Source of the DNA: Myxococcota bacterium
Lineage (GTDB): Bacteria; Myxococcota_A; UBA796; CAJQPC01
Reading direction: 5' to 3'
Length of the DNA: 62,258 nucleotides
NCBI GenBank assembly: GCA_023150845.1
Contig: JAKLKD010000008.1
Coordinates: forward strand, 1 to 62,258
Shown here one piece after another: positions 54,607 to 58,562 of this stretch; position 1 is the first letter of the stretch; the number at the start of each line of letters is the position of its first letter. The notes below the pieces were generated by a model. The model saw nothing but the letters and a program-made list of their open reading frames with translations. It searched no databases and was not told the origin of the DNA. The translations under genes were made by a program, and so were the position numbers.

Positions 54607-56382
54607 TCACTCCTGGGGAAAGAGCACCGCGTCGGCGTCGGGCAGGCGCTGGCCCTTGAGCTCGGCGAGCACCTCGTGGGGCGTGTGGAACCACCGGAGG
54701 TGCTCAAAGTCGGCGGTCATGGGGAGCTCGTCCTCCAAGGTGAGCCCCGGCGCGGCCGCCACGGCCTCGTCTACGATGCGCCGCGCCTGGCGGAGGTAGT
54801 CCTCCAAGACCCACTCGGGCTCCGTCGCGTGGCGGGAGCGGAACTGGAGCTTGCCGCCGCGGTAGCTGAGGTCGTGGAGGCTCATCGCCGCGCCCGGGCG
54901 CCCGGCGCGGTGCCGCCATTGGCCGGTCTTGGGGCAGAAGCGGTAGTGCGGCACGAGCTTCCAGCCCTCGTCCGCCACAAACCGCACGGCCTGGATCAAG
55001 AAGTCGAAGACGGCCTCAGAGATGAAGTAGTTGAAGTTCACCCGCACCCAGCCGGGCTTGATGCCCTCGCAGCCGCGCAGGATCTCCCGCTCAAACTCCC
55101 GTGAGGTCTCCAGATCGATGCCCAACAGCCGGTGGCCGTAGGGCCCTGCGCAGGAGCAGCCGCCCCGGGCCTGCACGCCGAACAGGTCGTTGAGCAAGGC
55201 CACGACGAGGTTGTGGTGCAGGTAGCGCCCCTGGTGGCGGACCACGAAGGACACGATGGAGAGCCGCCACGCCTTGTGGTTGCCGAGGATGGTGAGGTTC
55301 TCCGACTGATCCCAGGCGTCGATGGCCCGGCGGATAAACGACTCCTCCCGCGCCCGAATCGCCGCGGCGCCCACCGCCTCCTTGAGCTGGAACGCGAGCC
55401 CCGCCCGGATCGACTCGACGATGGCCGGGGTGCCGCCCTCCTCCCGGTGCTCGGGGTCGTCGAGGTAACGATGCTCTTGGGGGTTGACGTAGGCCACCGT
55501 GCCGCCGCCAGGCACCGCGGGCACACGGTTCTTGAGGATGTTGCGCTTCACGACGAGCACGCCCGGGGTGCCGGGGCCGCCGATGAGCTTGTGCGGCGAC
55601 ATGAAGATCGCGTCTTTGTAGATGAGGTGGCCATCGGGCAGCTCGTCCCGCATGTTCATCTCGATCTTGACGTAGGGGCCCGCCGCCGCGAAGTCCCAGA
55701 AGCTCAAGGCCCCGTGGCGGTGCAGCAAGGAGGCGATGGCCCGGGTGTCGCTGCCGATGCCCGTGACGTTCGACGCCGCGGAGAAGCTGCCGATCTTGAG
55801 CGGCCGGTTGGCGAAGCGCAGCAGCGCGGCCTCCAGGGCCTTGAGGTCGACGCGCCCGTCGGCGTCTTCCGGGATGGTCACCACGTCGCAGATGGACTCC
55901 CGCCACGGCAGCTCATTCGAGTGGTGCTCGTAGGGCCCGATGAACACGACCGGGCGCTCCTCCGCCGGGATGTGCTGGCTGAGGCCGTAGCGCTGGTCGA
56001 GGTCCTGGGGGATGCGCAGGTTGAGGCACTCCACGAGCTTATGAATCGCCCCGGTCGCCCCAGAGCCGCAGAAGATGACCGCGTCCCGCTCGTCGCCGCC
56101 GACGGCCCGCTTGATGATCTGCCGGGCGTCCTCGCGGAAGCGGGTGGTCTGCAGGCCCGTCCCCGAGGTCTCGGTGTGCGTGTTCGCGTAGAGCGGCATC
56201 ACCTCGTTGCGGATGAAGTCCTCGATGAAGCTGAGGCTCCGCCCCGACGCCGTGTAGTCGGCGTAGGTCACCCGGCGCGGCCCGTAGGGGCCCTCGATGA
56301 CCGCGTCGTCGCCGATCACCGAGGCGCGCACCAGCTCGATGAGGCGCTCAGAGTCGTTCACGTCGCGGGCTGGGGTGTTCAT
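54607..56382 (-). CDS. Class V aminotransferase / cysteine desulfurase-like PLP enzyme
   Basis: 591 aa, AAAGGAG upstream of the ATG. PLP-fold motifs: YADYTASGRSLSFIEDFI, NTHTETSGTGLQTT, FCGSGATGAIHKL, FWDFAAAGPYV and the Schiff-base Lys in MSPHKLIGGPGTPG. A possible active-site Cys loop is RGGCSCAGPYGH. The protein is some 180 residues longer than SufS/CsdA, with a C-terminal extension (RFCPKTGQWRHR, MSLHDLSYRGGKLQF). Related long proteins are annotated as aminotransferase class V; the reaction is not established and a selenocysteine lyase or desulfurase role is only possible. Confidence 0.85.
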   Translation of the reverse strand: MNTPARDVNDSERLIELVRASVIGDDAVIEGPYGPRRVTYADYTASGRSLSFIEDFIRNEVMPLYANTHTETSGTGLQTTRFREDARQIIKRAVGGDERDAVIFCGSGATGAIHKLVECLNLRIPQDLDQRYGLSQHIPAEERPVVFIGPYEHHSNELPWRESICDVVTIPEDADGRVDLKALEAALLRFANRPLKIGSFSAASNVTGIGSDTRAIASLLHRHGALSFWDFAAAGPYVKIEMNMRDELPDGHLIYKDAIFMSPHKLIGGPGTPGVLVVKRNILKNRVPAVPGGGTVAYVNPQEHRYLDDPEHREEGGTPAIVESIRAGLAFQLKEAVGAAAIRAREESFIRRAIDAWDQSENLTILGNHKAWRLSIVSFVVRHQGRYLHHNLVVALLNDLFGVQARGGCSCAGPYGHRLLGIDLETSREFEREILRGCEGIKPGWVRVNFNYFISEAVFDFLIQAVRFVADEGWKLVPHYRFCPKTGQWRHRAGRPGAAMSLHDLSYRGGKLQFRSRHATEPEWVLEDYLRQARRIVDEAVAAAPGLTLEDELPMTADFEHLRWFHTPHEVLAELKGQRLPDADAVLFPQE

Positions 56383-57278: not shown

Positions 57279-58562
57279 ATGCGCCTCCACCCGCTCCTCG
57301 CGCTCCTCGCCTTGGCCTCGTCCTGCGGCGACAAAGAGACCACCGACGACTCCCCGGCGCAGGACAGCGCCGAGGACTCCGCCGCGGCCGTAGACGCCGA
57401 CGGTGACGGCGTGCCCTCGGACCTCGACTGCGACGACGACGACGCCAGCGTGGCCCCTGGCCTCACCGAGACCTGCGACGGCCGCGACCAAGACTGCGAC
57501 GGCGCCGTCGATGAGGACGCCGCCGACGCGACCTCTTGGCTGAGCGACCTCGACGGGGACGGCTACGGCGCCGGAGCGGTGGTCGTGGTGTCCTGCGAGG
57601 CGCCCTCCGGCGGCGTGGCCCTCAGCGGCGACTGCGACGACCAGAACCCCGAGGCTTACCCCGGCGCCCCCGAGGAGTGTGAGGTCGCCGCCGACCTCAA
57701 CTGCGACGGCTCCATCGGCGGAGACGACGCCGACGCTGACGGGGTCGTGGCCTGCGAGGACTGCGACGACACCAACGCCCAGGCCTTCCCCGGCAACGTC
57801 GAGCGCGCGGACGACGGAGTGGACGGCGACTGCGACGGCCTTGAGGGCGGCGAAGACCGCGACGGCGACGGGCTCAACGAGGTCGAGGAGGCCCAGGCTG
57901 GCACCGACCCCCTCGCCGCGGACACCGACGCCGACGGCCTCTCCGACGGCGACGAGCGCGGCGAGCACGGCACCGACCCCCTCACCGCCGACAGCGACGG
58001 CGACGGCGCCGACGACGGCGCCGAGGTCTCCGGCAACACCGACCCCACCGACGCCACGGACAAGCCCTACATCGGCGGCTGGGAGATCGACGCCTGCCGC
58101 GGGTCCATCACCCCTTCAGGCACGACCGTCGGCAAGATCGCCCCCAGCTTCTCCTTGACCGACCAGCACGGCGACAAGGTCAAGCTCCACGACTTCTGCG
58201 GGAAGGTGGTCTTGCTGGACTTCGGCACCTTCTGGTGACCCCGCTGCCAGTCGGCGGTCGCCGACCTTCAGACCCGCCAAGACAAGTACGGCGCCTACGG
58301 CTTCATCGCCATCGGGCTCTATTCCGAGACCACGAGCTACCGCGTGCCGACCGCCGCCGACCTCATGGCCTGGGCGACCTTCTACGGCCTCAGCTTCCCC
58401 GTGCTCTCCGACCCCGGCGGGACGGAGGACAAACGGTATGACCCCGGCGACCGCAGCCGCCCGAGCTACGTGCTCCTCGGGCCCGGCGCGGAGATCCTCG
58501 TCGTCGGGACGAGCGTGACCGACGCCCAGATCGAGGCGGCCCTGCCGACGCCTTACCCATGA
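57279..58562 (+). CDS. Predicted selenoprotein: calcium-repeat lipoprotein with UxxC thioredoxin-like domain
   Basis: 427 aa if the TGA at 58236-58238 is read as selenocysteine (residue 320); read as stop it gives 319 aa lacking most of the redox domain. Signal with lipobox LASSC. Residues 37-190 hold MopE-like DCDDxD and CDGxDQDCDG units, then thrombospondin-3-like DGDGLNEVEEAQAGTDPLAADTDADG-type repeats to about 265. From about 285 a TlpA/AhpC-like domain begins: GKIAPSFSLTDQHGDKV, VVLLDFGTFW, then U-P-R-C. After the TGA the frame stays open for 107 more codons, with the expected cis-Pro segment RPSYVLLGPGAEIL. The Sec replaces the first catalytic Cys. Likely an extracytoplasmic thiol/peroxide redox enzyme. 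A sequencing error or nonsense mutation is the alternative. Confidence 0.85.
58236..58271 (+). other. Sec codon (TGA) and candidate bacterial SECIS hairpin
   Basis: TGA at 58236-58238. Stem GTCGGC (58250-58255) pairs perfectly with GCCGAC (58260-58265) around loop GGTC (58256-58259); lower CTG/CAG (58244-58246, 58269-58271) can extend it across an internal loop. Counting U of UGA as 1, the loop G-U is at 22-23; in E. coli fdhF it is 23-24 with the same GGUC loop. Confidence 0.78.

Follow-up and report, generated by a model that had tools for sequence, protein, structure and literature searches.

The 62,258-nucleotide stretch of Myxococcota DNA analyzed here (the window) contains an open reading frame that opens at position 57279 and reaches an in-frame TGA at 58236-58238; if this codon is decoded, the frame continues to a second TGA at 58560-58562. 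Domain profile matches and translation of this frame suggest the following features:

57279-58562, + strand: putative selenoprotein gene (427 aa, predicted Sec at residue 320)
58125-58559, + strand: redox domain AhpC/TSA, PF00578 (TlpA/ResA-like), coded on both sides of the TGA
58236-58238, + strand: predicted selenocysteine codon (UGA), at the position of the first Cys in CxxC (FW-U-PRC)
58250-58265, + strand: candidate SECIS hairpin (5' arm 58250-58255, GTCGGC; loop 58256-58259, GGTC; 3' arm 58260-58265, GCCGAC)
58560-58562, + strand: second in-frame TGA, an ordinary stop that is also found in the sister species

According to Pfam profiles, the C-terminal AhpC/TSA domain spans residues 284-389 of the 427-residue product, and PF00578 matches across the first TGA with 62.9 bits against a cut-off of 26. 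MopE-type metal-binding motifs and bacterial TSP3 repeats, all exceeding their Pfam cut-offs, lie N-terminal to this domain, and the N-terminus of the product carries what, judged by eye, is an export-type signal. When the ResA chain 4nmu is aligned with the product, its first active-site Cys (CxxC) coincides with the TGA at 58236-58238. The gene has the arrangement of a PF00578 UxxC thiol:disulfide selenoprotein, namely an AhpC/TSA domain in which TGA replaces the catalytic Cys at the first position of CxxC.

The hairpin taken alone

A preliminary description of this DNA claimed a 6-bp stem (GTCGGC/GCCGAC) with a GGTC loop just downstream of the TGA, located inside the coding sequence and devoid of a bulged U. 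The sequence bears out each of these points: the stem is perfect, the frame running from 57279 encloses it, and, with the U of UGA numbered 1, the loop occupies positions 21-24 with its G-U at 22-23, as had been stated. The E. coli fdhF SECIS carries a bulged U in its stem and a GGUC loop whose G-U lies at 23-24 from the UGA; the window hairpin differs from it in having no evident bulge. The general bacterial model, as given in the available portion of PMC13188914, does not demand one. Its limits are an apical loop of 3-9 nt that has a G within its first two positions, an upper stem of 4-16 bp, a spacing of 16-37 nt, and a minimum free energy (MFE) of -7.5 kcal/mol or lower (PMC13188914). The window hairpin falls within all of them, with a 4-nt loop opening on G, a 6-bp stem, 17 nt between the UGA and the apical loop (58239-58255), and an MFE of -9.6 kcal/mol for the 16-nt hairpin folded by itself or -13.1 kcal/mol for the 50 nt from the TGA, the latter not being low relative to shuffles.

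Folding of the sequence downstream of the TGA, which had been proposed as a check, yielded a 50-nt MFE structure that includes the hairpin at 58250-58265, though its z-score is only -0.63 (50 of 200 shuffles equal it), and a 100-nt fold gave z = 0. The pair probability of the stem varied from 0.03 to 0.69 with the stretch folded (nine stretches). In a score for hairpins with uninterrupted stems and a G among the first two loop nucleotides, the window hairpin reaches 17; of 20,000 synonymous recodings, all coding for the same peptide, 22% matched or beat this value. At exactly this distance, a 4-nt loop closed by a 6-bp Watson-Crick stem follows 54 of 124,396 window positions (both strands), and Rfam returned zero matches at E <= 5 within 58150-58400. 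The single hairpin is thus not by itself beyond chance in GC-rich DNA; because it is ordinary by z-score, recoding, and ensemble probability, the case rests on its homologues.

Sec and Cys homologues

The sister species, represented by L021 (MAG.430, Myxococcota) and L028 (G001), is approximately 86% identical to the window over this part of the sequence and keeps both the TGA and the hairpin. Of the 40 differences in the 327 nt that begin with the TGA, 37 are silent, which indicates a domain that continues through the TGA under purifying selection. No third position differs in codons 1-18 (0/18), compared with 32 of 88 across codons 19-106 (Fisher 0.00125). Since the slow synonymous stretch also reaches about 90 nt upstream of the TGA, where 3 of 39 third positions changed, the slowness is not specific to the hairpin; the hairpin does not account for its upstream part, and constraint may act on more than this element around the TGA. 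The slowest-changing stretch relative to the sister species corresponds to window positions 58148-58294, on both sides of the TGA.

For a broader comparison, the domain was searched in the genomes of 58 relatives, in 63 genomes of the order, and in 377 of the phylum, and the better-scoring matches from the 58 relatives were combined with those from the order and phylum searches, a subset of the homologues. Aligned to the TGA, the 128 distinct homologous sites comprise 65 with TGA, 44 with TGC, 16 with TGT, and three others; the last, in which the active-site residue is Asp, Glu, or Ser, were excluded from the Sec/Cys counts, and 18 further rows, picked for holding TGA, stand outside the 65/60 comparison. 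The preliminary description had named equal conservation of the hairpin in Cys homologues as the outcome that would speak against a SECIS. The opposite was found: a score of at least 17 is reached by 42 of 65 TGA homologues and by none of the 60 with TGC or TGT (background over all window positions, 4.4%), and a score of at least 14 by 54 of 65 and 7 of 60, respectively (background, 14%). At the higher score, therefore, the hairpin is present with Sec and absent with Cys. The nearest Cys homologues of the window gene, L029 (58% identical) and L031 (53%), likewise have no comparable hairpin. When L021, which duplicates L028 within the domain, is left out, 62 of 64 TGA rows have a G-type loop on a stem of 4 bp or more; in the two rows without one, L030 and L085, a stem broken by one mismatch can be discerned by eye around a GGTCT loop. 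In the 29 rows whose loop is centred at 26, five stem pairs are intact in every row (29 of 29), compared with 16-35 of the 60 Cys rows. Plasmid records yielded only distant relatives, all below 60% identity (28 records). At L093, L094, L095, L097, L099, and L100, the TGA-containing domain occurs as two or three copies packed into a single short stretch, and every copy has a hairpin to itself.

The distance from the UGA to the hairpin varies among these homologues: in the 64 TGA rows, loop centres fall at 21-23 in 8, 26-28 in 37, 29.5-30.5 in 8, and 34 in 9, with none in 2. Such a spread is unusual. A quick tree of 120 rows required at least 12 Sec/Cys changes, and 12 shifts between offset classes within the Sec rows, both counts being rough since the tree was built from 136 columns and left 54 of 117 forks open; it omits 8 of the 128 rows (the three non-Sec/Cys sites, L021-L023, and too-short rows). 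We consider the chances even that the SECIS of this redox-domain family, within this order of Myxococcota, has not kept a fixed place by inheritance but has been re-formed again and again in different codons while Sec and Cys were frequently exchanged. Repeated rebuilding would mean that the protein sequence following the active site has been shaped by the RNA signal, for example as Gly-Gly where a GGN loop lies in frame.

In the window's own genome, 5 of 30 PF00578 matches hold a single in-frame TGA, and each of the five is followed by a stem whose loop has a G within its first two places. Together with selD, this gives six hairpins: the window's, with GGTC at 21; L194, GTCCGA-GGTC-TCGGAC, with its loop at 21; L082, with GTC at 21; L196, GTGAGC-AGGTC-GCTCAC, with its loop at 20; L195, with CGGGTT at 27; and selD, with GGT at 24. 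The L194 type belongs to a Sec family, here called U-PVC, that comprises eight rows from five genomes including the window's own and places its GGTC loop at 21-24, as in the window. A covariation test had also been suggested beforehand, and this Sec sister family does retain the stem through paired changes: relative to U-PVC, both partners are changed in two stem pairs of the window, where pair 20/25 is C-G instead of A-U and pair 18/27 is G-C instead of C-G, and one of these paired changes connects two third codon positions. In the combined U-PVC and window alignment, 98% of cells are paired, compared with 19-48% for slid structures, and the covariation level was equalled in 6 of 500 shuffles; the paired changes represent one divergence, that between the window and the U-PVC family, rather than many. 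Separately, three AhpC/TSA-type genes (L202, L207, and L210) carry a TGA in G-U-T-EGCGYRD, followed by a stem of 8-9 bp with a GTA loop at 21.

These paired changes bear on a different account of the RNA element, in which Sec is inserted and the working SECIS is an alternative fold, such as a longer pairing with an 11-nt loop, or a hairpin located further down. Indeed, the local fold of the 39 nt at 58245-58283 favours the 11-nt-loop pairing, and the short hairpin can have a pair probability as low as 0.03 depending on the stretch folded. However, the U-PVC family matches the short hairpin in both place and loop while changing its pairs in concert, and we regard an alternative fold as unlikely.

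Selenium machinery and proposed decoding of the UGA

The window's genome encodes SelA (405 bits), SelB (311 bits against a cut-off of 242, with wing_2, wing_3, and beta-barrel domains), and SelD (374 bits), the three proteins of the Sec-decoding trait, which also includes tRNA-Sec. The selD gene (L018, G000:C167:174-1097) itself contains an in-frame TGA, in the context VDCAG-U-ASK, and downstream of this codon lies an 8-bp stem capped by the GGT loop. Next to the window gene, on the minus strand at 54607-56382, lies a gene for a class-V aminotransferase (PF00266). This fold class includes cysteine desulfurases and selenocysteine lyases.

The main gap in the Sec reading is the tRNA-Sec. In the window's genome it was sought by pattern matching (two patterns), with the Rfam model, and with a further model derived from nine relatives; the candidates proved to be Leu, Ser, or Thr tRNAs, or nothing above 13 bits. 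It was likewise not found in the genus mate G001 or in G003. Because few candidates were scored (131-150 per genome) and the assemblies are drafts (444 contigs for the window's genome and approximately 840 for the genus mate), these searches do not demonstrate its absence. Overall, 15 of the 19 genomes searched have a tRNA-Sec over the cut-off, and ARAGORN calls SeC(tca) at all 10 loci examined.

A missing tRNA-Sec in the drafts of the window's genome and its genus mate would fit another route of decoding, in which a Cys- or other tRNA with a UCA anticodon, or hairpin-aided readthrough, makes residue 320 Cys or something else. Cys-type opal tRNAs are reportedly present in deltaproteobacteria, which counts for this route. 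On the other hand, ARAGORN found no UCA tRNA either at the tested loci of the window's genome, the hairpin lies within the bacterial SECIS limits of the available portion of PMC13188914, relatives possess a standard tRNA-Sec, and the TGA-bearing SelD implies selenium use; we therefore hold this route to be highly unlikely. That the TGA is a real stop, with the domain sequence beyond it either degenerate or due to a sequencing error, and with the hairpin a product of chance in GC-rich coding DNA, is extremely improbable and already refuted in large part: the hairpin alone is indeed ordinary (22% of synonymous recodings as high, z = -0.63), but the sister species retains the TGA with nearly all downstream differences silent (37/40), 65 of 128 homologous sites have TGA precisely there, and SelA, SelB, and SelD are present.

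Interpretation and relation to known systems

The association of the hairpin with Sec and not Cys, the paired changes in U-PVC, and the presence of the SelA, SelB, and SelD genes support the SECIS reading put forward in the preliminary description. The hairpin at 58250-58265 is very probably a bacterial SECIS that would be bound by SelB and direct Sec incorporation at the UGA at 58236. With this UGA in the A site of the ribosome, the downstream hairpin would be held by the winged-helix end of SelB, which would deliver Sec-tRNA so that selenocysteine is inserted in place of termination. We infer SelB binding, Sec insertion, and the redox function and location of the product, which would be an exported, probably membrane-anchored UxxC thiol-disulfide oxidoreductase in which MopE/TSP3 metal-binding repeats precede a C-terminal TlpA/ResA-like domain.

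Under this SECIS reading, a gene that automatic annotation would probably present as encoding a truncated protein would instead encode a full redox selenoprotein. Many TlpA/ResA-like proteins of this Myxococcota order appear to be Sec-containing. Moreover, the 65 Sec and 60 Cys homologues constitute a natural experiment on the requirements of SelB, offering one protein site with several hairpin offsets and loops of a shared G-G-U type.

Among characterized proteins, the ResA/TlpA thiol-disulfide oxidoreductases (PDB 4nmu, 1st9, and 1jfu) share the domain and the motif position; unlike the window protein, which is predicted to have Sec, they have Cys. The window protein scores below the ResA NCBIfam cut-off (42.6 versus 170 bits). 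A literature search for selenoproteins or SECIS elements in Myxococcota or myxobacteria, with most subscription journals outside its range, found none, and the term 'Myxococc' does not occur in the available text of PMC13188914, PMC12013277, or PMC9312934. The kind of protein is already known: Table 1 of PMC13188914 describes both a Prx-like thiol:disulfide oxidoreductase family (PF00578, UxxC) and a thiol-disulfide isomerase-like family (cd02966, UxxC) of selenoproteins. Compared with the bacterial SECIS elements in the available portion of that source, the window hairpin is alike in being an in-frame hairpin just past the UGA, with a 4-nt loop opening G-G-U, a 6-bp stem, and a 17-nt spacing, and differs in that homologues of a single domain adopt several offsets (PMC13188914). 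Similarly, the protein resembles the UxxC families of Table 1 in its domain type and in having Sec at the first Cys place of CxxC, whereas its fusion behind MopE metal-binding motifs and TSP3 repeats, and its Myxococcota lineage, set it apart from them (PMC13188914).
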